The notes beneath the pieces are model-generated. The model was not told where the DNA came from. It was given only the letters and a program-made list of their open reading frames with translations, and made no database searches. Positions 2,606-52,700 of a stretch of 64,000 bases of DNA are shown one piece after another. The stretch covers positions 13,471,585 through 13,535,584 of the forward strand of contig NC_135169.1 in assembly GCF_041146795.1 (NCBI RefSeq). The letters are read 5' to 3'. A program made the translations under genes and the position numbers. Source of the stretch: Maylandia zebra (Eukaryota; Chordata; Actinopteri; Cichliformes; Cichlidae). Within the stretch, counting starts at the first letter, position 1. The number at the start of each line of letters is the position of its first letter.

Positions 2606-2785
2606 TTTCCATCTATTTTTAGTGCAGCGAGCACGGTCAGGGTAATGAGGAAGCGCTGTGAGGAGTGCGTTTCTCGACGTTTGTTTACATCCCGAATCAC
2701 TTTTCTGAGCTACAAATATGGAGTAAGCCTAATCGTTGTGTCACTTCCGGTATTTCAGACAATCCCTTTCCGTCAAGGATTTTTA
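2606..2785. other. Short spacer between integrase gene and minisatellite
   Basis: This would be the promoter side of the integrase gene. No TATA box, terminal repeat or coding exon was recognised. Confidence 0.3.
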
Positions 2786-3580
2786 ATTTGTTGCGGGTTT
2801 ATTTTAATTTGTTGTGGGCTTTTTGTATTTTGTTGTTGGCTTTTTGTAATTTGTTGTGGGCTTTTTGTATTTTGTTGTGGGCTTTTTGTATTTTGTTGTG
2901 GGCTTTTTGTAATTTGTTGTGGGCTTTTTGTATTTTGTTGTGGGCTTTTTGTATTTTGTTGTGGGGTTTTTGTATTTTGTTGTGGGCTTTTTGTAATTTG
3001 TTGTGGGGTTTTTGTATTTTGTTGTGGGGTTTTTGTAATTTGTTGTGGGCTTTTTGTATTTTGTTGTGGGCTTTTTGTAATTTGTTGTGGGGTTTTTGTA
3101 ATTTGTTGTGGGGTTTTTGTAATTTGTTGTGGGGTTTTTGTATTTTGTTGTGGGCTTTTTGTAATTTGTTGTGGGCTTTTTGTATTTTGTTGTGGGCTTT
3201 TTGTATTTTGTTGTGGGCTTTTTGTATTTTGTTGTGGGCTTTTTGTAATTTGTTGTGGGGTTTTTGTAATTTGTTGTGGGCTTTTTGTATTTTGTTGTGG
3301 GGTTTTTGTAATTTGTTGTGGGGTTTTTGTATTTTGTTGTGGGCTTTTTGTAATTTGTTGTGGGCTTTTTGTAATTTGTTGTGGGGTTTTTGTAATTTGT
3401 TGTGGGGTTTTTGTATTTTGTTGTGGGGTTTTTGTAATTTGTTGTGGGCTTTTTGTAATTTGTTGTGGGGTTTTTGTAATTTGTTGTGGGCTTTTTGTAT
3501 TTTGTTGTGGGGTTTTTGTAATTTGTTGTGGGGTTTTTGTATTTTGTTGTGGGGTTTTTGTAATTTGTTGCGGTTTTTTA
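2786..3580. repeat. 21-bp minisatellite, about 38 units
   Basis: The unit has the constant core TTTGTTGTGGG followed by a T-run and GTA. Nearly all variation is at two sites: GGGC versus GGGG, and GTATT versus GTAAT. Because 21 is a multiple of three, the array stays open in at least four reading frames (plus-strand FCCG(L/V)FV and FCILLW(A/G); minus-strand TPQQ(N/I)TK and KPHNK(I/L)Q). I treat these ORFs as a by-product of the repeat. Edge units (near 2787 and 3565-3590) are degenerate, as usual for arrays that grow in the middle. Confidence 0.92.
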
Positions 3581-3969
3581 ATTTGTTGCGATTTGCACTT
3601 CCCAGCCACCGTAGAAAATAGAGCAACAGGACCGCTGAGTCTTTGACTTTATTTATTTTCTGCTGTGTTTTACTTGCATCTATTTGAAAGAGTGAGTGTA
3701 AACACAAAAAATATTTTATTTTATGTGCTGGAATGTGTAGAAAATAGGTTTAAATGTTAAACTAATTTATTCAAGTCAGAGAATGTTGCATATAATTAAA
3801 TTTTTGCTTGATGCATAAAGTTAAAAGATTAAAACTGATAAAACAAGTTAAAAAAAAAGAGACTTTTCCATTTGATTACATTTTGTATGATGGATTATGC
3901 AGAAAAAGTAGAATTGGGCTGAAAGCTTTATCACCTCTTCAGGTTGTAAATCGTGTTTTTAAAAAGTAA

Positions 3970-4777
3970 TGTTAAGATTCAATATTGAGGAAGGGTACAA
4001 GAGGTGATCGAAGAATAACCACACCGATCCGGCCGGGTAAAGTCAAACGATGATTTTAATGAATACACGCGTGGGAAGAGAACTCTGTACGCAGACAGGA
4101 AGTAGTCTTCGACTTAATCAAAGCATGAACAGATATTTTATAGCATCAGGGTTTATTTACTGACGCCCCTTCATACGTCACAGATACATTTTATACATAG
4201 ATCAGATCAACATCATGACTTTTCACCTAGAAAATCATCTTCTATTTTCATGGCTAGCCCTTCCTGTCTACCTTTCAGTTCTTGTCTTGTTCCTCTTTCT
4301 TGCCGAGACACCAAGAAACGGTTCCTCTTTTACCAAGACAATTTTGCAGTTACAGCCAAACATAACTAACCTCTCCTCTAAATAAATCTAATTTAAAGTG
4401 TGTGTGTGTGTGTGTGTTGACCTCACATGCTCTTTCTTAATTCACCTGTTACACTTCTGACCTTTTACCAGACCAGAAGCTCACTGAGACTATGTGTATG
4501 TCTTCTACTAAATAAATGTTTTAATCAAGAACCTCTACTAAAACCTTAATATAAAATGATAAAGCTATCTGTTACATTGTTAAAGCCTCGTCTTAGCCTG
4601 CGGCTCAAAATAACTTCCTGCTTCTTTCTGCATACAACTTCCTGTCAGCCTGCAACTCAGTCTTTCTGAAAGAGACACTGTCTAAACCTTGGAATGCAAT
4701 ATCCATGCTGCAAATTATATTATTAATGCAATAACAATTATTTAACAATAGCAGTAAAATAATTTCCCTCCTCGACA
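3970..4777 (-). repeat. ERV 3' LTR
   Basis: 808 bp, no difference from the other LTR seen on reading, including the same nine TG units near 4398-4416. On the viral strand it holds a TATA-like CTATAAAA (about 4136-4144) followed by ATTAAA (about 4051-4056), which would give a short R region. Confidence 0.92.
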
Positions 4778-4788
4778 CTCCCCCTTTT
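4778..4788 (-). promoter_or_regulatory. ERV polypurine tract
   Basis: The viral strand reads AAAAGGGGGAG immediately before the 3' LTR's TGTCGAGG. This is the expected place and composition for the plus-strand primer. Confidence 0.88.
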
Positions 4789-5563
4789 GACCTCTGGAAC
4801 ACCAGAGGTCACAATACAGTGTGTCCTCACGCAGACCCTTCTCTGGTGGTCTCGAACCTCGAGATCTCCAGGATCCTCGCCCCTCCTGTGGTCGCCGAGA
4901 TCGGTCTTCTGCAAAGGAAACAAAACACCTTTTCTTGCATCTCCCTAACTTATCCTATCTGGGACTCTTTAATTAAAAGCCTGATCCTAATTATCTTCTC
5001 AACTTATTGACTTGTATTTATGTATACTCTTCAACGTTACTCATCACTTTAAAATTCTTTTAAGCGCTGGTTTCACGTCCAGTTGCTCGCTCTATTTTCC
5101 CTTATCTGATCATCAACATCCTATGCACAAGTTGTCGCTGCTGCAAGTTAATCTACTCCAAAAGAAAACAACCACTTTAATCAATTAAGTTTAAGCATAT
5201 AAGCAATTACTCCTGTATACATTTCATCATAGCTAAATGCTGCCTTGAAACAACTCCTATGTGTTAACACTAACTTAATTTTAAAACCTCACATTTCCTA
5301 TGTTATCACCTGTTTTGGTATAGCCTTTTTATTTCATTTTGCTCCTTTTAATGTAACAATACCTTCTAATTCTAATGTATCAGACTTAACCAAAATATAT
5401 GCTTTCCTTCCTCTTTGGTCCTTCTTTAAGTTCAGTTAAAAGCTAAATGAATTTAAGGCCTTTTGCCTGGAATCAATACTGTCATGTGTGTTTCTTAACT
5501 CTGTGTCTGTAAGCGTGTGCAATCCTTCATGAACTCATATTATCCTCACAGTAGATTGGCTAA
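4789..5563 (-). other. ERV segment between pol remnant and polypurine tract
   Basis: Env should lie here, but there is no open frame of useful length and no recognisable surface or transmembrane motif. With the loss of the integrase C terminus, this suggests one large deletion or replacement across the pol-env junction. Confidence 0.6.
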
Positions 5564-8500
5564 TCATAGCGCTAGCCAAAGGCTCGTGACCCTCCAGAGA
5601 CAAATTTGAGCCACAACTCCTTTAAAAGCACAAAATGCAATATGTATAAAATAGTTATAACTGCACCTGAAATACAAAGTTAACATCATCATAAACATCT
5701 TATGGTCATCAAAGCAATGGGCAGGGCTGCGACCCAATTTAGCCCTGTCTGCGCAAATTTTAGCCAACTTGTTTTTCAAATTTAGGTTCATCCTCTCTAC
5801 CTCTTGCAAATCTTTATTCTTGAAGTGAGTACCATTGTCTGATCTAATTCTCTTGGGAAACCCATGCCTTGGAATGTAATGATTAAGCACTTAATCACGC
5901 TTTTCGCGTCTTCACATTTGGTCGCCCATGCTTCGGGCCATCCAGTCAAAACATCCACACACACCAACAAATACCTCACCCCACCTGGGCCTGTATCAAT
6001 CATGTCGGTATAATCAATCACGACCTCTTCTCCTGGCCTTCCTGGCATGAGAAACTTACCAGCTTCAGGTTTTACTGCTGGCTTTGGGTTGTGTGCCCCA
6101 CAAATTAGGCACGTTCTGGCCTTTTCCAGTATCATCCTTCTCAAATCAGGATGCCACCATCGGCACAAATTTCTCTCCATCTGTTTCACTCCCACGTGAC
6201 CAAGCCCGTGAGCCTCATTCACCTTTTGTTCCGCCAGTTTGGCCGTTAAAGCGGGACGCCCATCTGGCCCCCTCCACAAACCGCCATCTTGCCAGGCTCC
6301 TTTGTTTTCCCACACCCCCTTTTCCTCTGGGGATGTCTCCTCCTGAGCCTGTCTAACTTCTTCCATGCTGTTAGTGCTAACCTCCTCTTCTGGGGTTACC
6401 TGCACCAGTTGTCTCTGTCCTTTGTAGCCCGCTGCTTCCTTTGCGGCTTCGTCAGCTTTCTGATTTCCTCTTGCCACCATACTGTCTGCTTGTGAGTGGC
6501 CTTTGCATTTTATAATACTTACCTCGTCTGGGTCCTCCAGGGCCTTTTTGTGACAGATGGGTGCATTAATGGCCGTTCTGAACCCGGCTCTCTTCCACTG
6601 AGCCAGTTCCACATGAGCTGCTCCAAACGCATATGCTGAGTCAGTGTAGATGTTCACTCTCATGTTTTTAGCCAACCTCAGGGCTCGAGTTAGGGCTATC
6701 ACTTCAGCTCTCTGGGCCGACTGTTGTCCCTCGATTTTTCCTTCAACTTGGGCTTTCTTAATACAGTCATGTGGTTCTCCTGACCCCATTAGGTCTGCCA
6801 TATTTATTCCTTCATGTGTGAATATCAGATTTGGCGCCTCTAAAATTTTGCTGAACCTTTGTTGCGTCAGTGGAGTCATTGTGAATGCCTGTGAGTTCAC
6901 ATAGGCCACTACACTGTGTGTAGTAAGCACTTTCAGTGGGTGTTCCCTCACTATATGTGCTGTTTTCTGAATTATCTTTGCTACTCCTGCTGCGTGTTGT
7001 GTGCATGTGGGATGCCTTACTTCTGTTGAATTTAATCTTATGCTGACATACATAAGTACATCCCTACCTCCCCCTTTTTTCTGAAACAACACACCATTCA
7101 CAACTCCCTTTGTTTCTGAAACATCAAGATAAAATGCCTCATCATAGTTAGGTGTGGCCAGATCTGTGGCTCTTGACAAATCCTGTTTTAGTGAAATGAA
7201 CGCTGTCTCTGTGTCCGGCGTCCAAGGCAATTCAGCCTTCAGATTTCGAACACCAACTTTCTTGATCAAGTCCCTTAAAGGGGCCGTTTTACCCGCATAG
7301 TTCGGAATGAACTGCCTGCTGTAACCTGTCAAGCCAAGAAAGGAAAGCAACTCCTTCACAGTTCTTGGTTTTGGATGTGTCAGAATTTGGTCTCTGTGTG
7401 TGTTCATTAACCCCACTGATCTGTGTGCGATCACCCGGCCCAGGAATGTTACCTCTGGCCGGACCAACTGCAGTTTTTCTTTGCTCACTTTGAAGCCACA
7501 CTCCGCCAATCTGTTCAACACCACGAGCGATGCTGCCGTACAGGCCGCTGCTGACGGGGCTGCAATAAGAAGATCATCAACATACTCTATTAATGTACAG
7601 CCCCCTGGCAGTTGACATGGGGACAATGCCTCTTTCAACACCTGATTAAAAATTCCTGGTGAGAGTGCAAAGCCTTATGGTAGGCGTGTGTACCTAAATT
7701 TGCGGCCTCTGTATGTGAATGAGAAAATGTCTCTGAGTGACTCGTGCAGTGGGAGACAAAAGAATGCATTCGCTAGGTCAATACATGTGAACCACTTTTG
7801 GTCTTCAGTTTTGTGCTTCTATTATGGTCTGTTAAATGGTATGTCATACTTCAGCCGGAACAGGACAGGCGAACAGTTAGCTAGACCCACATCTGTGGGC
7901 CCTGCGGACCACAAAGTACCAGGCAATTTTGAGAGCTCAGCTACTGCATCAGGATGATCCATTCTTTCCCTGCCATGTATTCTGGAGATTTCTTTATGTT
8001 CTAAGATCACTGCATCGTTGGACAAACAAGTTATGCGATATATTTTACATTTTGGTGCATACCAGACATTTGGAATTTGGGTGCCTTGCCAGCATGCGTT
8101 GTCCAGCGCCCGCTTGACCATTGGTCCCAGATCTCTTGGCCCATGACCCTCGTGGACCGCCAATGTAATGTGAGGGGCTGAATCCTCTCCCACATTGTAC
8201 CAAGGCAGTTATTCATCAGTAAATTTCACAGCCGCGGCCACACCTTCTGGTCCAACATAAATGTTATGTGTTTGCACATTCCACGTCTGTCCCTCAAGAT
8301 CAGACTGGAACTGTTCCCGATAGATATCGTTATCTTCCCTATCATAAAAGAGTGTAACGTGGAAAGGATCTCGCGGAGGGGAATAGACGGCCAGGCTCAT
8401 TACCCAGGGTTTCCATAGCTGATAATGTCTCAAAATGCCTTCTTCCACTAGCCTCCCCCAGTAGATTTCGACAGTGGGTTGTTCAGAGTTCTGGACTAGA

Positions 8501-8583
8501 TATTGAGTCTTTGAAGGTGATCCCAGTTTCACAAGCAGGTCCCTGCCCATGAGATTTTCCAGGCACCTGTGAGGACACCACAT
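5564..8583 (-). pseudogene. pol: ERV pol (RT, RNase H, integrase), broken
   Basis: In viral order: a protease/RT linker (8583-7822), RT palm with YVDD (about 7580), RNase H with Glu and Asp motifs (AQRAEVIAL, YTDSAY), and an integrase with an HHCC finger (HGLGHVGVK...CLICG) and core motifs VIDYTD and RSDNGTHF. Breaks seen: a 1-nt frameshift near 8553 leaving the protease frame; in-frame TAA at 8211-8209; stops near 7822 together with loss of part of the RT fingers; TAA in place of Gln in the conserved LPQG motif near 7677; a frameshift near 5885 between the first and second integrase Asp; and loss of the integrase C terminus after about 5760. No polymerase can be made from this copy. Confidence 0.9.
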
Positions 8584-8830
8584 ATTGGTGCTTCAAAGTC
8601 TGTTTTCCCAGCTGTGTCAATGCTGGTTTTGTCAATGGCAGTGTCATCGGAATCCCGGAAAAGCCTACCACATTAACTGTGTGACAGGAGAGTGTTGCAC
8701 TGTCTGGTGTGTCTTTCAATGTTGAGTATGTTGCTCCAGTATCCACCAGGAAGGGCAATTCAGTGCCTTCCACGGTCATCGACAGCATGGGTTCTGCCGT
8801 TCCCACCCTGTTCGGTTTCTCCGGGCTCCG
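8483..8830 (-). pseudogene. pro: ERV protease (pro)
   Basis: It follows gag in the same reading frame, separated only by the TGA at 8833-8831. The active-site motif is FLVDTGATYSTL. The frame is lost near 8553, where a continuing NLMGRDLL flap/linker segment appears in the next frame, consistent with a single-base insertion. Confidence 0.82.
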
Positions 8831-8833
8831 TCA
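8831..8833 (-). promoter_or_regulatory. In-frame gag stop (UGA CGG), candidate readthrough site
   Basis: Gag and protease share one frame across this single stop (8833 and the protease codon at 8806 are 27 nt apart). Gammaretroviruses express pol by suppressing the gag stop. UGA followed by C is a leaky context. I did not work out a downstream pseudoknot. Confidence 0.6.
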
Positions 8834-10486
8834 GTATTGCTCCCCCTCCCAGCCCCAGTCGGCTACTGGGTTCTGGGGGGCTGGTGCTGCATTCGGGTTT
8901 GGAGCTTGATGTGCTCCCCTGTAAGCAGCTCTTTGTCTTGGGCCTCCCCGTGCCTGGGATTGATAGCCTCGCCCCTGATAGTTCTGCGGCGGTTCAGGGC
9001 AATCTCGGGCCCAGTGTCCTTCTGCTCCACATCTCAGACACGCAGTCCAAGACACTCTGCCAGGATTCCCCGGATTCCGAGCCCTTTGTCCTCCCCTCAC
9101 GGATCCACCACGCCCTCTCTGCGGTCCACCGGTCCCCCAATTCCCTACGGGTTGACGCTGCCTTGGTGCATTGGCGGGCCAACGATCATCAGGGTAGAGA
9201 CCCGGATCCTGATCTGGCCAGTCAGGCACAGGATCGGGCTGAGGCCTTGCCACCATTATAGTCTTATTTAGTTCATTCGGTTCTTTTTTCTTCGCATTAT
9301 ATTTTTCGCGAGCCTCACCCAGCTGCAGCCTAAGCAGCTGCGCCTGTGCTTCATCTAACTCTTTCTTTTGTTTGTTCGTCAAATCCTGTTCCTGCTGAAG
9401 TCTGTGGGTCACATGTCTCTCCCACTGCACCGAGTCTGCAACGGCAAAATCTGGGTTCTTTTCCAAGTCAACTGCAACCTGGTTGGGCAGCCCTGCCAGC
9501 ACTGCCGAACGAAACCACGCTCTACTTTCACCCTCCTTCCCCGGATGTATTCCTGTTTCTAACAACCATTGTTCCTTTGCTTTAGCTAAACACTCTCTGG
9601 GTTTCTTTTTGGGATCCCAAATAATTTTTGGAATGGCTCCAAAGTTAGGAGTTGGGTCCTTCTCCCGAACTGCATCTGCTAAGTCACTCTGCACCTCATG
9701 ATATTTCAGGTCATTTGCATATCTGGTTGTTTGAGCTATCTGCTCTACATCTGCTAACCCACCACCCAGCATACAACGTCCGGCCAAAGTGCGAAAGTCG
9801 CCCAGCGCTAATTCTTCTCCTTCCCAATGTTCTCCCTTGGTTATTGGTGGAAGTTGTTTAACCAATGCTTCCAAATCTCTCACCTTATAGGCGCGATAAA
9901 CTGGTTCGTTCTTTGGACCTGCTATTAGAGGCAGACTTAAACCAGGGTCAGGAGCTCCTTGTTCAAAACTCACTCTTCTACTCTTCCTCAACTTTCCTTT
10001 CCCCTTTGAGCTCTTAAATATGGGCTGTCTCTGTGCTTGGTCTGTCTTCACACTTCTTTTCCTCAAAATTAGGCTTGTACTTGGTTGGGGTTCAGCTCCT
10101 CCATCTTCGTCCTCCTCATCGTCTTCTTCTGATGACGTCGCACGGTCTTCATTCTCCTCTTCTGGCCCTCCCTGCATTACTCTCTGCTTTATAACCTCCA
10201 ATGCCGTTAATGCCTCTATGGACGCACGTAGGGCCTCATGCATTTGTCCATACACTTCTCCTTCAGTTTTTAACACCAAGCTCAGAGGTATTTTATCACC
10301 CAGCCCTTTCTGTTGGGATATAATAGGTTTACTTACCTCAACCTCCATCGCTTGGCACTCTTTCTCTGCTGATTTTGATACTCCAGGGGAAGCCAAGCGA
10401 ACAGCTTTCTTAAGCTGTTCGAGCTGATCCTTCAGAGGTTTGCATCCCCTTTTCCTACTAGGTGTCGCACCCGATCTGTCAGCCAT
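8831..10486 (-). CDS. gag: ERV gag polyprotein
   Basis: 551 aa from the ATG at 10,486 (MADRSG...). The open frame extends 16 codons further upstream but without an ATG, and a splice donor lies in that extension. Features are a basic, low-complexity N-terminal half with an acidic run near the middle (EEDDEEDEDGG), a capsid-like region, and one CCHC zinc knuckle (CLRCGAEGHWARDC, about residues 483-496) followed by an RGG/proline-rich tail. It is uninterrupted. The stop is TGA followed by CGG, in frame with protease. Confidence 0.88.
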   Translation of the reverse strand: MADRSGATPSRKRGCKPLKDQLEQLKKAVRLASPGVSKSAEKECQAMEVEVSKPIISQQKGLGDKIPLSLVLKTEGEVYGQMHEALRASIEALTALEVIKQRVMQGGPEEENEDRATSSEEDDEEDEDGGAEPQPSTSLILRKRSVKTDQAQRQPIFKSSKGKGKLRKSRRVSFEQGAPDPGLSLPLIAGPKNEPVYRAYKVRDLEALVKQLPPITKGEHWEGEELALGDFRTLAGRCMLGGGLADVEQIAQTTRYANDLKYHEVQSDLADAVREKDPTPNFGAIPKIIWDPKKKPRECLAKAKEQWLLETGIHPGKEGESRAWFRSAVLAGLPNQVAVDLEKNPDFAVADSVQWERHVTHRLQQEQDLTNKQKKELDEAQAQLLRLQLGEAREKYNAKKKEPNELNKTIMVARPQPDPVPDWPDQDPGLYPDDRWPANAPRQRQPVGNWGTGGPQRGRGGSVRGGQRARNPGNPGRVSWTACLRCGAEGHWARDCPEPPQNYQGRGYQSQARGGPRQRAAYRGAHQAPNPNAAPAPQNPVADWGWEGEQY

Positions 10487-10500
10487 TCTCTGAAACACAG

Positions 10501-10508
10501 ACTTACCT
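10501..10508 (-). promoter_or_regulatory. ERV major splice donor
   Basis: The viral strand reads AGAG|GTAAGT, a near-consensus donor about 20 nt upstream of the gag ATG. This is where a retrovirus would splice to make env mRNA, although env is gone here. Confidence 0.65.
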
Positions 10509-10534
10509 CTTCCAATGGCGTTGGTCGACTCCAC

Positions 10535-12716
10535 CTTCTTGGTCTAGGTCACCCAGACACGCTTAACTTTCAGTTTCAGTCTTCGTCTCGCTGTTCTCGC
10601 AACCACTGGCTCCTCTTCCCCTGCTCGGTGATACACAAAGTTTAACCCAGCCCTTTAGACGCTGTCCTCGCGTTCTCAAGCGTTGACACTCAATCAAAAT
10701 TATTCGCCCTCAAAGTGTTAATATATGACACCAGCAACCCTTATGCGCAACGCGCTCACCTCCGTATACTTACCTCTCCAATAGTTCCTCGGATTAGTGT
10801 TTTTTCATTTATTTTAAACCCATTAACGGCGCTGCGCGTCCCTTATATACTTTACAGCAACACACCCTCAAGGGTCCCTCAACTTGTCCCGTACTAATAA
10901 GTCCAAAACCAAGAAATCACCTTTATGACATTATGTCAAAGCTTTCTCCATGTTGCACAGCCTGCCACAGGTCTAACAAAAAATCGCTGCCCGAGAAGGC
11001 TCCCACATATCAAGGTGGTCGTTTTCACAAACTTCCAGCAGACCCTCAAATAAACAAAAACAACGACCCAGGCAGGCTTCCAGGTCAGCCTCCTCAATTT
11101 CTATGCACACTGAAAACTCATGGGGAGATTCTTCTGTCTCCCCGTGTCCTACACAATTCACCTCCAAATGATCCCCTACAATTGAAATTTCAGTGTGGAA
11201 TGACGCAGAGATTAACATTTCCTTATTTATTCACTATATGTAACCTGAATTTTCTCTCTCTTATCAAATAACAAAGGTTATCTTTACAATTTGTTATTGA
11301 ACTACTAATTAAGTTGCTTTTTATGGTGTCAGTGATAAACCGCCCCTAAAAAGTCCACTTTATTGCGTGCTCATTGAGTTACTCCTATCAAAACTATTTA
11401 ACAAGTTCAATTTACACATACTCATTAATCTGTCACGCTTATTAGTGGCTCATGGTTGCTTAAAGCCTATGTCTGACTTGACCACAGAGTTAGAGCATCA
11501 TTCAATCCTCTCAGGATGACCACTCCACTTACTCTGCATCCAGTCAGCTCATGAATTAACAACCCTTGCAGACTGTAACCCTTTTATTTTTTGTTTATGC
11601 CTTCAAATCCACCTTAAATCTTCTTTACCTAACCGTTGGTTTCAAACACAAACAATTCTTATATTCTATTTTGAAACGCTGTCACCATTCATATATTTAC
11701 AATGTTGTTATTTACTAAGCCAGCATTTTAACCGCAGACATTTATCCACATTTGCAAACAATAGTTATAGAGCTGAATGACACACAAAACCGAAAGCATA
11801 GTCCTCTCATGCGCTCTGCATCAGCTGCCTCATTTGCATGCACACACACTCTTCATCTAAGAATAGCAGCAGGCAGTCAGTGCATTGCTGACTCGACCCA
11901 CAGAGATCTTTTTAATACAGAGACGTCTTATATTTACAACTGCACAGATTTTATGCCTTTTAACACCTACCGAATTTCGAAAAATTTAAGTTAACGGTCT
12001 AACCGATAAAAGTCCAACTTTTTTGTAATCAATTAACCAGTATCTGTCCAACAGTTTCTGGCCTCATCTCTAAAGTCCCTAACTCAATTTAAAAGTGTCC
12101 AACACCCAAGGTCCAACCTTTGCTGCCCAAAAAAGCGCAGATACCGTTCCAAACGGTAAGGAGATTCTAACTCCTAGTTATTCTGGAGTGCCCCAAGCTC
12201 CACAGTGACCAACTGACTATCCCTCTTCGAGGACAATGCATAAGCGTCCTTTGCATTGGCAAGCGTTACCTCTGAGCACTGCGCTTCCTACCAGTCCAAC
12301 TGGCGTTCTTGAGTAATTTATAATACTTTGGAACAACAATAAAACACCCAACAAAGTGTAAGACTGAAGCAGGTCCAACCTTATAACCAAAAAATAACCA
12401 GATTCCCTAACATACTAAACGGTCCAACCGCATTCAATCATTACCAGCAGTCCAACTGCTTTAAATCCTCAGTACTGTCATGACATTCTCATCAAAATCA
12501 AAACAGACATCCACCAGTAACTTCAGTGAGTAGACTTAAATTTTATCATGTCCAATTTGGCACACTTTGGAAATAATTCAACAGGTAGTGCCTTACCTTT
12601 TGGATAAGCCGGCTTATGCCCACTCACTTAGACCACTGGAATTCACGTCTGCCCGTCAGACCACCCAAGACCCCGGATTTCTCCGTCCAAACCTCCAACT
12701 CACCCTCCTCAATAAC
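10535..12716 (-). other. ERV 5' leader, about 2.2 kb
   Basis: Unusually long for a simple retrovirus. No reading frame over about 110 codons looks like a gene. Its PBS-proximal part (11,995-12,460) contains the hairpin array described separately. The rest (10,560-11,990) shows no recognised motif beyond AT-rich stretches and one further palindrome, AAAGTCCACTTT, near 11,350. Confidence 0.6.
11995..12460 (-). promoter_or_regulatory. Array of about 11 short hairpins with a shared UGG loop
   Basis: In viral sense nine perfect stems enclose exactly TGG, always closed by a T-A pair. Plus-strand arm/loop/arm positions: 12008-12022, 12044-12054, 12095-12105, 12108-12120, 12142-12158, 12291-12303, 12371-12381, 12420-12430, 12446-12460. 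Stem lengths are 4-7 bp and the stem sequences differ. Two variants are 11995-12005 (loop TAG) and 12203-12215 (loop TGGTC). Arms that change in step while the loop stays constant indicate an RNA structure rather than a plain tandem repeat. Position near the primer site suggests packaging, dimerisation or translation control; the function is unknown. Confidence 0.7.
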
Positions 12717-12732
12717 CGGACGAAGCCCCCAA
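12717..12732 (-). promoter_or_regulatory. ERV primer-binding site, tRNA-Pro-like
   Basis: Right after the 5' LTR the viral strand reads TT then TGGGGGCTTCGTCCGG. This matches the sequence complementary to the tRNA-Pro 3' end except for one extra T after GGGGGC. Confidence 0.75.
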
Positions 12733-12733
12733 A

Positions 12734-13541
12734 TGTTAAGATTCAATATTGAGGAAGGGTACAAGAGGTGATCGAAGAATAACCACACCGATCCGGCCGG
12801 GTAAAGTCAAACGATGATTTTAATGAATACACGCGTGGGAAGAGAACTCTGTACGCAGACAGGAAGTAGTCTTCGACTTAATCAAAGCATGAACAGATAT
12901 TTTATAGCATCAGGGTTTATTTACTGACGCCCCTTCATACGTCACAGATACATTTTATACATAGATCAGATCAACATCATGACTTTTCACCTAGAAAATC
13001 ATCTTCTATTTTCATGGCTAGCCCTTCCTGTCTACCTTTCAGTTCTTGTCTTGTTCCTCTTTCTTGCCGAGACACCAAGAAACGGTTCCTCTTTTACCAA
13101 GACAATTTTGCAGTTACAGCCAAACATAACTAACCTCTCCTCTAAATAAATCTAATTTAAAGTGTGTGTGTGTGTGTGTGTTGACCTCACATGCTCTTTC
13201 TTAATTCACCTGTTACACTTCTGACCTTTTACCAGACCAGAAGCTCACTGAGACTATGTGTATGTCTTCTACTAAATAAATGTTTTAATCAAGAACCTCT
13301 ACTAAAACCTTAATATAAAATGATAAAGCTATCTGTTACATTGTTAAAGCCTCGTCTTAGCCTGCGGCTCAAAATAACTTCCTGCTTCTTTCTGCATACA
13401 ACTTCCTGTCAGCCTGCAACTCAGTCTTTCTGAAAGAGACACTGTCTAAACCTTGGAATGCAATATCCATGCTGCAAATTATATTATTAATGCAATAACA
13501 ATTATTTAACAATAGCAGTAAAATAATTTCCCTCCTCGACA
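12734..13541 (-). repeat. ERV 5' LTR
   Basis: 808 bp, the same as 3970-4777 in every block compared. Ends are TGTCGAGG...TTAACA on the viral strand. Confidence 0.92.
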
Positions 13542-13661
13542 GTAACTAAGTAATTAATTACTTTTGAAAATAAGTAATCAGTAAAGTAACGGGATTACTT
13601 TTTTGGGGGAGTAATCAGTAATTAGTTACTGATTACTTTTTTCAAGTAACTTGACCAACAC

Positions 13662-14189
13662 TGATGGTCACACCTCTCTGTTTTCATCAAAAACTGTGTG
13701 CTCAAGGGGGGGAAGCTATAAACAACTGAAACGTAAAGCTTGCAGAAACACAGAGATGAGATGAACAGACTTCAAAGTCCAATACAGCACTATATGTACA
13801 CGGAGAAGGGGAAGTGGAGAAAGCCGGGGATAACGAGACACAGGTAAACTAAATTGAAGGATGAGCCAATGAAAGGGTAGCTAAAATCAAGGCACAAGGA
13901 AAATGCAGGAAACCACATAAACAAGTAAACCAAGAGTCAAATAGAATATTTACATAAATAAAACGAAAGTCCAAAAACTTAAAAACATTTGGTCAAATCA
14001 CCCAGGACCGTGATACACTGTATGCTTTTGAATCCATTAGGTTGCGTAAAAGGAGAAATCGTCAGCTGGATAATTACTGGATTTCTACCTGAATGGTGTT
14101 TGAGCCAGAAAACAAGAATCAAACTCAGGCTGGTTGTTGCCACATTCTTTATTTTTTTTTGGCAGAAAGTACAACAATAAAGATAATTG
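13662..14189. other. Spacer 3' of the ZP gene
   Basis: No gene or repeat with clear ends was recognised. Confidence 0.3.
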
Positions 14190-14455: not shown

Positions 14456-17400
14456 CTAATGAGTCCAGGACATGCCGATGGAGGCTTCACCTTCGTATTT
14501 GGATCCAACAGATCTGCGTCTGCGAGCTGCTGCATTACAATTCTGGATGTTCAAACAAAATACAACTGAATTCACTTCATGTTTTCAGTGTTGTGCTGTG
14601 AGTGTAGTTAAATGAGGATAAAAATGTACAGAACAATATAATCTAGTAATAAACAGGTGTTTAGTTAGAACGTAACACATGCACCTGCTTTACTTAAAGC
14701 ACCAAAATGATTATATATGACCATATATGTTAATGGTGTGCTTTGGAACAATGAATAGATGGTTAGGTTTGTGCATAACAAATCAAGCCCTCCTGTAACA
14801 GGTGGGATGAATAGGTAAAGCTTGCTATGAGTGTTTGACAGTGAGGCCTACCGGTATGCAGCTGGTCTCCTCTTTGGGACACAGGTGGAGTTTGCAGTGC
14901 AGGTAGACTTCACCAGAACCCCCAGTGAACCGGAACATGTTGAACGAAAACAAGGTGGAGGTTCCCAGTCCGTTTTCCTCCACTGCCACTGTCAGGTCAG
15001 CAGGGTTCGCACAGCTTTTCATAACCACGAAAATACACGTTATTGAGGAGCTGATAAAGGTGATCAAAGTGAACTTATGAGTGACTCTGAGTATCTCTCA
15101 CCGTTAATGATCAGATCATGTCTTGGACTGCTGGTAGGTGATGCCTGGTTGGTTGCCCAGCAGGAGTCGCTCACCACAGTGACCATGCTTCCATCCAGCC
15201 CATTAGTCTCCAGCTCTACCCAGATCCTCTGGTTCAGTCTCACTTGACTGTTCAGCTGCACAACTTGTGTCCACCCAGCGTCGGTGTAGGCCTTGATAAT
15301 CAGAGTGTAATTCCAAGCTCCACATGAGATCTTCTGTGCAACGGAGCTGCAGAATGCACACATTTGCACTGTTAACAATGCCCACATTTTAACAAATATT
15401 CAAACAATACCTAGCAGCCACTACAAACCAGTCTCTGATTCTGAAGGTTGCAGTGTTGATGTTCGGCTGACTGTGAACACAGGAGAAGTCGATCTGGACT
15501 TGGTTGTTGCGAGCAGAGATGGGCAGTAATGCGTTACTTGTAACGCGTTACTGTAATCTGATTACTTTTTCAAGTAACGAGTAAAGTAAGGGATTACTAT
15601 TGCAAAATCGGTAATTAGATTACCGTTACTTTCCCGTAGGAACGCTGCGTTACTGCGTTACTAAAACCGTGATTTTTTTGCGAGAATGTCTCATGACAGT
15701 GACGTAAGCAAGTGCGCCGTTGGTGACAACAGCTGTGTGCAGATCGACAATGGATAATATATCGATTGTGGGAGAGAGTATGAGCGTGCAGCGTTTAAAG
15801 TGTGGAAGTACTGACCTTACTTTGAGTTTGATTCCATAAAAAGTGACAAAAACATTAGTGTCCGTTGGGCGTGGGAAGAAAACTTTTTACAGCGAAAAAA
15901 ACCCCTAAACTTCCAAGCAAGCACCGAGTGCGCTACGACGTAATGGGAAACTCACAGAGAAACTCGCGGATTCTTCAACTGACCGCAGCACACCTGCACC
16001 AGGGTAAACCTCCGCCTACCCCCAGTCCTGCTTTACAGGTGAAAATAGAGCAAAAGGACCGCTGAGTCTTTGACTTTATTTATTTTCTGCTGTGTTTTAC
16101 TTGCATCTATTTGAAAGACTGAGTGTAAACACAAAAAATATTTTATTTTATGTGCTGGAATGTGCAGAAAATAGGTTTAAATGTTAAACTAATTTATTCA
16201 AGTCAGAGAATGTTGCATATAATTATATTTTTTCTTGATGCATAAAGTTAAAAGATTAAAACTGATAAAACAAGTTAAAAAAAAGAGCCTTTTCCATTTG
16301 ATTACATTTTGTATGATGGATTATGTAGAAAAAGTAGAATTGGGCTGAAAGATCTATCGCTTTATCACCTCTTCAGGTTGTAAATCGTGTTTTTAAAAAG
16401 TAACTAAGTAACTAAGTAACTAAGTAATTAATTACTTTTGAAAATAAGTAATCAGTAAAGTAACGGGATTACTTTTTGGGGGGAGTAATCAGTAATTAGT
16501 TACTGATTACTTTTTTCAAGTAACTTGACCAACACTGGTTGCGAGTGATGACGTCAAAAGAGTAATTCTGGCTCCTGATGGTGTTCTTATAGATGACGTA
16601 GCTGTTGTTGGTCTGCAGGGTCACATAATCAGATACTAAGCAAGTTCTTCATTGTTTCATCTTTAACATCTGATACCCTTTAAGATGTTGACTGACTGGT
16701 ATAAACTTCAGATGACCAAAAATTTTAGAATTCACAGAGATCAAAGCTTAAACAGCAGGAGATGAAACCCACCGTGACCACCGTCCCACATCTGTTGCTG
16801 CTGTTGAAGCTGAAGGTCACCATGTGGGTGAGCTCGTCCACCTGACCCCTGCAGGTCGGGTAGTTGAGCTGTAAGGCAGAGTAATTGATGTGTTTGTCCT
16901 CCAGGAGACAACCGACCAGAGTGACTGAAGCAGAGTCCTGCATGCAGACCGTTGCATCACCTGAACGTCACAATATCAGTCAGAAAAATCACAATTAGAA
17001 GCTTTCCTCCATTATTCAGCCCTGTTGTCATGGTGATGTCACAACTGTCGTACCCAAAGAGTTGATTTCTTGGTACTTGGAGGAAAAAATGGCCCGACAA
17101 AAGCAGCGAGTGTCACCACTGACCGTCTTCTCACCACAGAACTCGTGATCGCTGCAGGTCCTGTCCTGACAGAAGGCCTCAGAGGCTACAGAGGAACACA
17201 CTGATGTATTATCCTGAAAACGTGGGAGCTCTAAAAATCCACAGTTCAGGTCTTTAACAAAGGAGAGCTTATTAATGTCTTATTAAGGTCTTACAGCAGC
17301 CGGTCTTTGATGTCCAGCCATCCTGAGCGTGGTTGTGTAGACTGCAGGCTCTGGCGTAGGCCTTCAGAAACTGACAGTTGAGTCCATCCACTGCAGGATA

Positions 17401-26560: not shown

Positions 26561-27415
26561 CTCTTGGTTGCTTAGGAATTCATGATAACAACAACAGCTG
26601 CTGACGTCACAGACCACGTGTTCTGCTCCTTACACACTCACACAACAACAACAACAACACAAAAAAGGGCTATTGTCCAGCACAATCTGGACCCCGCGGA
26701 ACTTCTCAATACCCCACAAAGCGGCGGACCCCACAAAGCGGTCTACATTTCTCCCCACTAAGACGGCGAACCAAAAAAGTTCGAACTGCGCAACTCTGCG
26801 ACTTAATGCTTCTGTACAAAAAAACCCCACTGAGCGGCTTTGTACATCGCCCCACTAAGACTGCGAATTTATCCCCACTAAGCGGCCACGGACAACGCCC
26901 CACTGAGCGGCGAAGACGTACAGTTATAGAGTTGGACTCTAAATTTACTCGGTGTTGCTTAGCGTGTAGTATAGCCTCGGATCCCGCCGATCGCCATTCA
27001 TCAAGGAGAGAAAACAGACAGCTCATCCACTGGCCTGATGACAAACTCTCACGTCTTGGGACTTTACTACAGGAACTTCCTGGCTGACGTCAGTCTTTCA
27101 GCGTGTCTCTTCTCCCCTTGGTGAATGTCGACTCCAGGGCTCCGGCTCTCAAAGGACCAATTAATGATAGGTTTGTAGCTTGAACCTATTCGCTGGAACG
27201 TTGAAGACAATATAATTACACAGCAAGCAAGACACGAAGTAGGCAAAGTTCTTCTTGTTACTCATGCATGAGGGAGACCTGCCTGGAGCCAAGTGTCGTT
27301 CCACCACTTGACCTCCGTCAGACTCCCAGCCAGGTTCCCCATAGCACTCCTTTTATTGTGGTTACATGAATATGCATAGGGTCATAACATACGACGGACG
27401 TCTACATACAAACAA

Positions 27416-27418
<3 letters not shown>
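26561..27418 (-). mobile_element. Possible LTR plus leader of another retroelement
   Basis: On the minus strand a promoter-like region (ACAATAAAAGGAG near 27,350) is followed by TGGTCCTTTGAGAGCCGGA (about 27,140-27,158), close to a tRNA-Tyr primer site but with one mismatch and a 2-nt insertion. Downstream, seven degenerate copies of a CGCTTAGTGGGG motif lie between 26,910 and 26,700. No second LTR, gag or pol was found, so this is tentative. Confidence 0.35.

Positions 27419-27473
<55 letters not shown>
27419..27473. repeat. (GT)n microsatellite
   Basis: An uninterrupted run of about 27 GT units. Confidence 0.97.
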
Positions 27474-27474
<1 letters not shown>

Positions 27475-28399
27475 TAAGTGATAAGTTAACAGCGATGCAG
27501 GTGGATGCTTCTCTGGTGTCCTGGATTGTTGATTACCTGACAGGAAGACCACAATATGTACGTCTCCCACAGTGTGTGTCTGACAAGGTAATCAACAGCA
27601 TAGTGGCACCACAGTGGACTGTCCTCTCCCCCTTCCTCTTCACCCTCTACACCACAGACTTCAGCCACTGCACAGAGACCTGCCATCTTCAGAAGTTTTC
27701 TGATGACTCTGCGGTGGTTGGATGCATCAGCAGGGATGATGAAACAGAGTACCGGGCTGTGGTCGACTCCTTTGTCACGTGGTGTGAGCAGAATCATCTG
27801 CAGCTCAACGTGGCAAAGACCAAGGAACTGATCGTGGACTTCAGGAAGACCAGGAAACACTTGACCCCTGTTTCAATCCAGGGGGTCAGTGTTGACATTG
27901 TGGAGGTCTATAAATACCTTGGAGTACACATTGACAATAAACTGGACTGGGCTAAAAACACCACAGCACTTTACAGGAAGGGCCAGAGTCGTCTCTATTT
28001 TTTGAGGTCCTTCAACATCTGCCAGAAAATGCTCAGGATTTTCTACAAGTCTGTTGTGGCCAGTGCGATCCTCTATGCTGTTGCATGCTGGGGGAGCAGG
28101 CTGAGAGTCGCAGATGCCAACAGACTTAATAAACTGATCTGTAAGGCCAGTAATGTTGTGGGGATGGAGCTGGACTCCCTCAAGGTGGTGTCGGAGAGGA
28201 GGATGTTGTCCAAGATAAAGACAATGTTGGCTAACACCTCCCACCCACTCCATGACATGCTGGTCAGTCACAGGAGCACGTTCAGTGAGAGACTGAGATT
28301 ACCGAAAAGCACCACTGAACGACACAGGAAATCTTTCCTGCCTGTGGCCATCTCCCTGTACAACGCATCCACTTAACACACTGTTTACTGCTACAGCTA

Positions 28400-49700: not shown

Positions 49701-52700
49701 AAATAGCGTTTATAATGGAAGTCAATGGGCAGAAAATGGTCCCCAGGGTGATGGGTGTGGGGATTTCTGCTGCTCAGCCATTTTAGGCTGATTTAAGGAA
49801 TTCACACTGGAATATTAACATTGACAGGTAAAAACTATCCTGTGGCAAGTTTGGTTATATTCCACTGAACACAGTGGAAATGGCAGCCATTTAACACATA
49901 GCAGTGGCACAAAAAGGTCCCAAGAAGGCAGGAAGGTTAATTGTTTACTAAATGTTTGAGGTGTGAAAGAAACCACAATGGAGCAAAATATGGGCGTGTG
50001 TGGTTGGAGGATGTGTTTGTGCGTGTGCGTGCGTGTTGTAAAACAAAGGCAGCAAAAAAAGTTTGGGAACCACTGTAATAGAGGAACCAGCTGACATGGT
50101 TTGAGCACCTGAATAGGAGATCTCCTGCACATCTAGACTTTGATGGACTAGGTCAGGGGTTTTGGGCATGTCCAGCTGTGAGGAGACCTGTGACAGAAAC
50201 AGGACTGGACTGGGAATGCCTTGCTGGAAAGGCTGGAGATAGTTGCCTAAATGAGGCCATTCTCTCCACTTTTGCTCATCTCAGAAAGGACAAGAAAATG
50301 GATGAATTTGCGGATTTAAAGAACTGCACTGGACACAGGTATAAATGCTTTTTGACTGGAAAACTACAAGGCCTCTTACAGTCTGGTTGGTTTTAACATT
50401 TTCAGTATTTAACTAAGTTCAAATCAAATCACTTTTATTGTCACATCACATGTGCAGGTACATTGGTACAGCACATGTGAATGAAATTCTTGTGTGCGAG
50501 CTTCATAAGCAACAGAGTTGTGCAAAATACAATAATGTAAACAGGCAAAATACAAGAATGGCTGATCTGAAACTAATAAATATATGTACAATATATAATA
50601 GTATATGCATTTCTGGATGTGTATACTAAATATTTTTCTACGTGTGTGTGTGTGTACACATATTTTACAAATTAAATAGAGTAAACAATAAATAAAATAT
50701 ATAAAAATATACAGAGTTGAGACATGTGCAAAACAGTGGCATTGCTGTACAGTATGTAGTGCATAATGTTGAAGTTCCAGTAGTGGAGGTGAGGTGTCTA
50801 TGAAGTGTTCAGCAGTCTGATGGCCTGATGGAAGAAGCTGTCTCTCAGTCTGCTGGTACGGGACCGGATGCTGCAGAACCTCCTTCCTGATGGAAGTAGT
50901 CTGAACAGTTTATGGCTGGGGTGACTGGAGTCCTTGATGATCCTCCCCGCTTTCCTCAGGCAGCGCTTCCTGTAGATGTCTTGGAGGGAGGGAAGCTCAC
51001 CTCCAATTATCCGTTCAGAGCACCGCACTACTCGCTGGAGAGCTTTGCAGTTGTAGGCGGTGCTGTTGCCATACCAGGTGGTGATGCATCCAGTGAGGAT
51101 GCTCTCAATGGCACAGTGATAGAAGGTCCTGAGGATGCGGGGGCTCATGCCGAATCTTTTCAGTCTCCTGAGAAAGAAGAGGCGCTGCTGCGCCTTCTTC
51201 ACTGTTTTGTTTGTGTGTACTGACCACGTAAGATCCTCAGCCAGATGTACACCAAGGAACCGGAAGCTGCTCACTCTCTCCACAGCAGCGCCGTTGATGG
51301 TGATGGGGGTGTGTACTTCTCTGCACCTCCGGAAGTCCACTATCAACTCCTTTGTCTTTGCGACGTTGAGGGTGAGATGGTTGTCTTGACACCAGTGGGT
51401 CAGGGCGCTGACCTCCTCCCTGTAAGCCGTCTCATCACCATTGGTGATAAGAACCACCACTGTAGTGTCGTCCGCAAACTTCACAATGATGTTGGAGTTG
51501 TTAGTGGCTGTGCAGTCGTAGGTGTAGAGTGAGTACAGGAGAGGGCTCAGTACACACCCCTGTGGAGCACCAGTGTTCAGTGTGATGGGGGATGAGGTGA
51601 TGCTGCCCAGTCTGACCACTTGGCGTCTGTCAGACAGGAAGCTAAGGATCCAGCTGCAGAGGGAGCTGCTCAGTCCTAGATCCTGCAGTTTCCTGTCCAG
51701 CTTCGAGGGAACGATGGTATTGAATGCTGAGCTGTAATCTACAAACAGCATTCTCACATACGTGTCTCTCTTCTCCAGGTGTGACAGGGCAGTATGTAGT
51801 GTCAGGGCTATGGCATCATCAGTGGACCTGTTGTGGCGGTATGCGAACTGTAGAGGGTCCAGTGAGTCGGGTAGTGCAGAGCAGATGAAGTCCCTGACCA
51901 GCTTCTCGAAGCATTTGCTTACGATGGGGGTCAGGGCTACAGGTCGCCAGTCGTTCAATGAGGAGATGGTGGAGGATTTGGGTACAGGGACGATGGTGGC
52001 CATTTTGAAGCAGGCTGGGACTACAGACAGAGAGAGGGAAAGGTTGAAGATGTGCGTGAACACTCCAGCCAGCTGAGCCGCGCATGACTTGAGGACGCGG
52101 CCGGGAATCTCGTCCGGACCTGTAGCTTTGCGTGCGTTCACCTTCCTGAAGCACTTCCGCACATCCTCCTCAGACACAGTGTGCGCACTGACGTCATCCG
52201 CGGTGCGCACCCTGTCCGGTCTCATGGTGTTTGCTGTGTCGAATCTAGCGTAGAATACGTTTAGATCCTCACACAGAGAGGCCGTGGTCTGCGGTGTGCT
52301 GGTTTTCCCTCTAAAGTCTGCGATCGTGTTTAGTCCCTGCCACATACTCCGAGGGTTGTCAAACTGTTGCTCCACCCTGTCCCTGTACTCACGTTTGGCT
52401 GCTTTGATCGTCTTCCGGAGTTGGTAATGTGCGTGTTTGTAGTCCGATGTGTTCGCGGAGGCAAAGGCGGTGCTCCGTGCCGCCAGTGCCGCGCGAACAT
52501 CTCCGTTAATCCAGGGTTTTTGATTTGGGATGGATTTAACTGTTCTGGATGGGACGACATCTTCCACGCATTTCCTGATAAATCCACAGACTGAGTCTGT
52601 GTACTCATCAATGTCCCTAGCAGCCACGTGAAACATTTCCCAGTCCGCGTGATCAAAACAGTCCCACAGCGTAGACTCCGATTGGTCCGTCCAACAGTGC

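Follow-up and report, generated by a model that had tools for sequence, protein, structure and literature searches.

The closest described counterparts of the locus analysed here are the core packaging signals (Psi) of retroviruses, including SL2/SL3 of HIV-1, SL-B/C/D of MoMuLV with UCUG sites and muPsi of RSV, which it resembles in its position in the leader. Few retroviruses have known packaging signals, and these are hard to define because each of them is a handful of unlike structures. In the available sections of PMC7599994, short hairpins or linkers of Psi show guanosines to the zinc knuckles of nucleocapsid (NC), and we liken our locus to this arrangement, with Gag as the presumed binder. 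The known signals contain few distinct hairpins, whereas the present locus has 3-14 near-equivalent triloop hairpins with varied stems, their number differing between copies. A second related kind is packaging-signal-mediated assembly, in which, as in MS2, many stem-loops share a common loop motif within variable surroundings (available part of PMC6281560); the -RGAG- loops of HBV and the stem-loops of STNV belong to the same multi-stem-loop kind in the parts available of PMC7612645 and PMC3593212, respectively. Sites of that kind are scattered genome-wide, whereas here they are packed into a leader segment of ~470 nt. The available part of PMC6281560 contains 'retrovir' and 'HIV' in a single place, the title of a cited work on Arc. 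We partly infer that the array would act like Psi elements and packaging-signal-mediated assembly, as a variant with many equivalent hairpins. Third, one hairpin form of the locus resembles the T-loop of the tRNA elbow in its UUNRA pentaloop core closed by U-A (PMC4810234, in the part available); unlike the T-loop, most of the hairpins are triloops on a continuous helix, C-G closure is possible, and no tRNA was found. Finally, the element is similar to class I (gamma/epsilon-like) endogenous retroviruses (ERVs) of fish in its CCHC gag, its stop before pol and its reverse transcriptase (RT) nearest to XMRV/MLV p80, and differs from them in its 2.2-kb leader with a hairpin array, which is unmentioned in titles or abstract starts there. 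No such array was described in the titles and abstract starts of the open-licence literature searched, which is weak evidence, and in Rfam no family scored above its gathering score over 3900-13700, with one far-below match at 13591-13658, outside the provirus.

The window, by which we mean the whole 64-kb stretch of DNA analysed, carries the array in the leader of a provirus (Table 1). The insertion is young, since its 808-bp LTRs are identical and a 4-bp target duplication, GTAA, flanks it at 3966-3969 and 13542-13545. The top matches of the pol frame among solved structures were RT/RNase H p80 chains, presumably those of XMRV/MLV, and the element was therefore placed in class I, gamma/epsilon-like. 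It has the LTRs, primer-binding site (PBS), gag with CCHC and MLV-like RT of a class I ERV. The leader, measured from the PBS as far as the in-frame ATG of gag (10486), is ~2.25 kb long, in agreement with the 2.2 kb given in the preliminary description. In three pieces of related elements (L209-L211), the reading frame runs on in frame past the gag stop. The frames in the gag-to-pol interval of the window copy are all shorter, and the two that were scanned had no Pfam match. No env-sized ORF was seen in this copy, with no viral-strand ORF of at least 120 aa at 4778-5796. The gag product had no match among PDB sequences, and tblastn confirmed 0 Gag relatives among 482 pattern-matching stretches of IMG/VR. 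A direct repeat of ~360 bp (96% identical) lies on both sides of the provirus (3614-3969 and 16041-16403), a second direct repeat (99%) occupies 13541-13663 and 16415-16537, and an older repeat seems to be the landing site of the provirus.

Table 1 Features of the provirus and of its hairpin array in the window (sequences in viral sense).
Feature	Position	Strand	Basis or remark
Class I endogenous retrovirus (provirus) bearing the array	3970..13541	-	LTR comparison and flank reading
5' LTR, 808 bp	12734..13541	-	Sequence equal to 3' LTR, no difference
Primer-binding site, presumably tRNA-Pro-like	12716..12731	-	Sequence; TTTGGGGGC here in 37 of 40 copies
Predicted splice-donor-like site AG/GTAAGG in 5-bp hairpin AGGTA-AGGCAC-TACCT	12583..12598	-	Upstream of array; exon end 12597
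Hairpin array	11995..12460	-	Palindrome scan and shuffles
Hairpin 1, AGCAGT-TGG-ACTGCT	12446..12460	-	
Hairpin 2, CGGT-TGG-ACCG	12420..12430	-	Other copies: GCGGT/ACCGC, ACGGT/ACCGT
Hairpin 3, AGGT-TGG-ACCT	12371..12381	-	
Hairpin 4, CCAGT-TGG-ACTGG	12291..12303	-	
Heptaloop hairpin, AGGAG-TTAGAAT-CTCCT	12159..12175	-	Near variant; other copies: AGTGG-TTGGA-CCACT instead
Hairpin 5, TACCGTT-TGG-AACGGTA	12142..12158	-	
Hairpin 6, AAGGT-TGG-ACCTT	12108..12120	-	AAGGC/GCCTT in L022
Hairpin 7, GTGT-TGG-ACAC	12095..12105	-	
Hairpin 8, CTGT-TGG-ACAG	12044..12054	-	
Hairpin 9, AAAAGT-TGG-ACTTTT	12008..12022	-	Other copies: AAACTC-AGG-GAGTTT
Hairpin 10, CGGT-TAG-ACCG	11995..12005	-	Near variant; other copies: CGGT-TGG-ACCG or CCGC-TGG-GCGG
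gag open frame, in-frame ATG 10486, one CCHC zinc knuckle, stop-terminated	8831..10534	-	
pol open frame: RT end, RNase H, integrase	5797..7641	-	
3' LTR, 808 bp	3970..4777	-	LTR comparison

The array is real and in excess of chance, its stems covary in two lineages, and its loop changes between lineages. In the window, the scan returned exactly the nine perfect palindromes that the preliminary description had counted, with arms of 4-7 bp around TGG on the viral strand and T-A closure in 9/9; near variants are CGGT-TAG-ACCG and AGGAG-TTAGAAT-CTCCT, the first of which likely explains the left boundary drawn in that description. The earlier statement that such a number is far beyond chance was borne out by 5000 dinucleotide shuffles of the 466 nt, which gave a mean of 0.054 and a maximum of 2. 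No triplet exceeded 3 in any of these shuffles, so that the post-hoc choice of TGG is allowed for. Using the same scan, 12 scattered TGG palindromes were found on both strands of the rest of the 64 kb, and the viral strand of the provirus outside the array has only two more (9561-9573 and 10961-10971). A weaker hairpin excess was seen in the rest of the leader (10536-11895; 11 against 5.4, reached by 7/500 shuffles). A coding role of the array was rejected, with 6-8 stops in each viral-sense frame. As a separate observation, a lone palindrome of the array-unit form, TAGAGT-TGG-ACTCTA, lies on the plus strand at 26927-26941, where there is no array.

The proposed search for related leaders in the same genome found them, with arrays present. 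At least 40 full or partial copies of the leader piece, window included, occur at 82-100% identity in the 962-Mb host genome, a lower bound, as 40 of 293 candidates were scored; 39 fetched copies and the window were analysed. Each of these 40 copies has between 3 and 14 perfect TGG hairpins, and of the 331 in total 325 are closed by T-A and 6 by C-G; the longer arrays contain tandem copies of a two-hairpin unit of ~52 nt. In the 35 distinct leaders, the stem continues for two or more further Watson-Crick pairs at 255/258 GTTGGAC cores, compared with 42/803 on both strands of 80 control contigs, taken from at least 120 IMG/VR stretches matching a GTTGGAC-triple pattern. Over 302 sites, the three pairs outside TTGGA are Watson-Crick in 97, 99 and 98%, with two, three and four main pair types, respectively, and pairing fades from the fourth pair outward; TTGGA and GTTGGAC sites in these counts are non-independent, the copies being related by descent. 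On one contig (C3, 54.1-60.0 Mb), at least 29 near-identical leader arrays have the minus orientation and one has the plus orientation, and this 6-Mb block seems to be a large segmental amplification carrying the array leader.

Covariation was scored for five hairpins of the 3' half in 21 distinct aligned copies, drawn from 29 distinct stretches after eight wrongly anchored ones were dropped (L036 re-entered with other coordinates). Standard pairs made up 99.0%, the score was 0.085 and four pairs were changed on both sides; all three measures were reached by 0/500 shuffles, and sliding the partners by 1-3 columns left 0-1 double-changed pairs. The four double-changed pairs sit in three hairpins; one change is common to four copies and the other changes each occur in a single copy, and 4 of the 24 scored pairs also include cells without a standard pair. 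Examples are AAGGT/ACCTT to AAGGC/GCCTT and CGGT-TAG-ACCG to CCGC-TGG-GCGG. Hairpin 9 and the heptaloop hairpin were left unscored because alignment gaps break both; by eye, AAAAGT-TGG-ACTTTT is replaced by AAACTC-AGG-GAGTTT, and AGGAG-TTAGAGT-CTCCT by AGTGG-TTGGA-CCACT. The view of the array as a small RNA motif repeated many times, its stems co-varying, was thus upheld by the other copies, as well as by a distant lineage described below. These data also bear on the disfavoured and very improbable reading that the array has no function and is a mutational by-product of palindrome-prone DNA or of tandem duplication. Some units are indeed tandem duplicates, and the loop columns are hardly above the spacers in conservation; against it, stem sequences vary from unit to unit and are altered in both arms from one copy to another, and triloop hairpins are not in excess in three stretches of the window used as controls, one of which lies in gag and two of which lie outside the provirus. 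Loop conservation was dropped as an argument (0.917 for loop columns and 0.896 for spacer columns; 35 distinct copies, columns with at least 15 letters), the small difference being due in part to other loops at the same sites in some copies.

The claim that the centre is always TGG holds for the nine hairpins of the window and fails across relatives, in which the loop is lineage-specific (UGG, UUNRAGU or mostly NNG). The array is kept while its loop differs by lineage, and UGG is not invariant. One subfamily (L034, L036, L037, L038 and L042) has 7-8 G-TTNRAGT-C sites with 2-5 Watson-Crick pairs, and L035 equals L034 in sequence over the array region. L034 has 6 TTNRANY heptaloops with a stem of at least 4 bp, whereas none of 1000 shuffles has more than 1. 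UUNRAGU heptaloops and TTGGA loops substitute for each other, partly at the same sites, and a single site may thus be occupied by either the U-UGG-A triloop or the UUNRAGU heptaloop, depending on the copy. Two protein- or promoter-type candidates were set aside. The heptaloops were rejected as B-boxes of a Pol III promoter, since the B-box consensus includes a fixed C, which varies here. The Smaug recognition element is a CNGG loop, so that C is expected before NGG; T precedes TGG in 325/331 hairpins and C in 6.

After G, the triloop and heptaloop forms both have U-U-N-R-A, the core of the tRNA T-loop, and the hairpins could accordingly be T-arm mimics, that is, apical lone-pair triloops U(UNR)A in the form G-UUGGA-C, or G-UUNRAGU-C with a 2-nt 3' insertion, which dock either tRNA or factors that bind it, for instance so as to collect the primer tRNA. 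The heptaloop excess in L034, the interchange of heptaloops and TTGGA loops at one site, and the UUNRA core, G-C closing pair and 7-nt loop of one subfamily agree with this proposal. Position C56 of the tRNA T-loop is not retained, however, and the TGG and NNG triloops do not have that 7-nt loop form. The available part of PMC4810234 gives the T-loop as a pentaloop closed by U-A, with a U-turn. In 6/331 hairpins the closing U-A has become C-G with the stem kept, which fits Watson-Crick rather than reverse-Hoogsteen pairing and argues for ordinary pairing, and many NNG loops of a distant lineage are also closed by C-G. ARAGORN found 0 tRNA genes in 6/6 leaders scanned. Taken as a whole, we regard T-arm mimicry, in either form, as improbable.

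The gag search of the host genome also reached lineages at ~67% and 54-58% identity. For the latter, six leader pieces were fetched, five of which (55-58%) align mutually; the sixth, L207 (54% gag), aligns with none of the other five leaders and has no array. In L199 (450-1150), 7/7 triloops with arms of at least 5 bp end in G (shuffle mean 0.21, maximum 3). NNG triloops with arms of at least 4 bp number 8, 8, 7, 5 and 7 in L199, L204, L205, L206 and L208, which was reached by 0, 0, 0, 2 and 0 of 500 shuffles, respectively, in segments cut by hand to 560-730 nt (L207 whole) after the hairpin places were known. In the uncut L199 leader (251-2230), 13 triloops with arms of at least 4 bp were reached by 25/500 shuffles, and 10 triloops with arms of at least 5 bp by 0/500. 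Across the five aligned leaders, 97.9% of pairs in four hairpins are standard, and seven pairs are double-changed (five in triloop hairpins, two in a longer-looped hairpin), a result reached by 0/500 shuffles and reduced to 0-1 by sliding; the sample of five sequences is small, and clean alignment guided the choice of the four hairpins (three triloop, one with a longer loop), with the structure taken from L199. RNAalifold places the same four hairpins unaided, with a small covariation term (-1.63 of -117.51 kcal/mol). The 67%-gag lineage has four usable leader pieces (L200-L203), a fifth, L198, being without the region. Its triloops mostly end in A, and its NNR counts were reached by 21, 0, 1 and 156 of 500 shuffles, so that the evidence is mixed: a clear excess in two of the four, a weak one in one and none in one. 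L199 also has two long perfect hairpins, AGAGTGGTC-gacaaaa-GACCACTCT at 884-908 and CTCTTCTCT-cgctgtt-AGAGAAGAG at 1368-1392.

The loops of these lineages bear on two further proposals. HIV-1 uses anticodon mimicry for tRNA-Lys, and in a comparable manner UGG loops could mimic the anticodon of tRNA-Pro(UGG) and draw prolyl-tRNA synthetase for primer loading, as the loop UGG and a PBS resembling tRNA-Pro would suggest. L199, with a PBS that we liken to tRNA-Phe, nevertheless has loops such as GCG, GAG and AAG, and not GAA, which makes this mimicry extremely unlikely. The other proposal is dimer linkage or RNA compaction, in which loops meet each other or G-rich partners and join two genomes. 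The known dimer loops of retroviruses are palindromic, and UGG and most NNG loops have no self-complementarity. The position in the leader would suit such a role, and two T-loops can interdigitate (PMC4810234, in the part available); on balance, we consider it quite improbable.

The fold check suggested in the preliminary description came out against the array as a stable whole: 11995-12470 is no more stable than its shuffles (z -0.90; 18/100 at least equal), and the global fold was set aside as support. Folded singly, five of the nine hairpins reach no more than -0.5 to -2.0 kcal/mol, and the in-context mean pairing probability is at most 0.02 at 37 C for two of the nine (CGGT, AGGT) and at most 0.07 at 25 C for three (CGGT, AGGT, GTGT). 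Among departures from pairing in 51 contexts, 13 are G.U, 6 are A.C and 18 are other, and this preponderance of G.U over A.C mildly favours the viral-sense strand.

As Psi is defined, the array is placed in the 5' leader, between PBS and gag. The donor-like site lies upstream of it in 40/40 copies (GTAAG in 36, GTAGG in 4), within AGGTA-N6-TACCT in 36/40, and four distant leaders have AGGTG...CACCT, a both-sided change relative to AGGTA/TACCT; this latter pattern was not found in the other seven pieces scanned, some of which stop short of the site. A donor within a hairpin is also seen in HIV-1, where SL2 itself is the splice-donor hairpin (PMC7599994, available sections). Because the array is downstream of the donor-like site, it would be restricted to unspliced RNA if this donor is used.

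We propose, with a probability of about 0.5, that the array is a set of repeated docking sites for Gag/nucleocapsid on unspliced RNA, that is, a multi-hairpin packaging signal. The array would be an RNA element of the full-length viral transcript, with stems of 4-7 bp whose main task is to display a small loop that contains a purine. One molecule of the virus's own Gag may dock on each loop (mostly UGG in this lineage, UUNRAGU or NNG elsewhere) by the one zinc knuckle in its nucleocapsid domain, where, as in known retroviruses, an unpaired guanosine would be held. Spliced RNA would lack the array and only unspliced genomic RNA would bear it, and many weak, adjacent sites could lead to cooperative and selective packaging of the genome. 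The arrays would grow partly by tandem duplication of the ~52-nt two-hairpin unit, and the units may diverge through compensatory stem changes. What we infer in this proposal is RNA action in the viral sense, use of the donor, Gag as the partner and packaging as the outcome; Gag binding and packaging are ranked ahead of dimerisation and translation as presumed roles. In the available sections of PMC7599994, the NC zinc knuckles of HIV-1, MoMuLV and RSV hold exposed guanosines, which lie in hairpin loops in HIV-1 SL2/SL3 and RSV SL-C, and MoMuLV has several UCUG sites for which cooperative recognition is suggested. Two points in the same sections count against the proposal: MoMuLV NC does not bind hairpins in isolation, its target being a UCUG linker, and exchange of the HIV-1 GGAG loop had no significant effect on packaging. 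The proposal is also weakened by the unremarkable global fold, by hairpins that are marginal alone or not predicted in context, by the near-equal conservation of loops and spacers, by the small RNAalifold covariation term, by the mixed result in the 67%-gag lineage and by the fewer, unlike sites of known packaging signals.

A viral rather than a host partner is favoured because the loops differ among lineages within one host. The alternative with a host partner is a nuclear export or translation element, in which a host RNA-binding protein exports the unspliced RNA or enables gag translation after the 2.2-kb leader. Simple retroviruses need an element of this kind, the leader is long, and the array is downstream of the donor-like site. 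Loops that vary among lineages of one host genome fit a partner that evolves with the virus better, an objection that is softened if the lineages stem from different hosts, and we judge this alternative to be unlikely. Returning to Gag as the partner, the CCHC knuckle is present in 3/3 lineages looked at, and the residues around the cysteines differ. A more far-reaching form of the Gag proposal, which we offer only tentatively, is a modular genome-recognition code in fish retroviruses of this group, made of interchangeable hairpins, in which the loop would be a lineage password read by the lineage's own Gag, keeping the genomes of co-resident viruses apart, and in which arrays would evolve by unit duplication, compensated stem drift and lineage-wide loop replacement. 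If Gag is the partner, the array can be a natural experiment on whether Gag reads stem, loop, number or spacing, and it would tie retroviruses to the multi-site packaging-signal model of icosahedral RNA viruses.

Elsewhere in the window, an ORF at 2645-3646, for which no Pfam family was found, spans 38 in-register copies of a tandemly repeated 21-bp unit. In addition, RT frames at 50798-52702 and 27366-28376, each then followed by a Pfam ALKBH8_N match, presumably belong to non-LTR elements.
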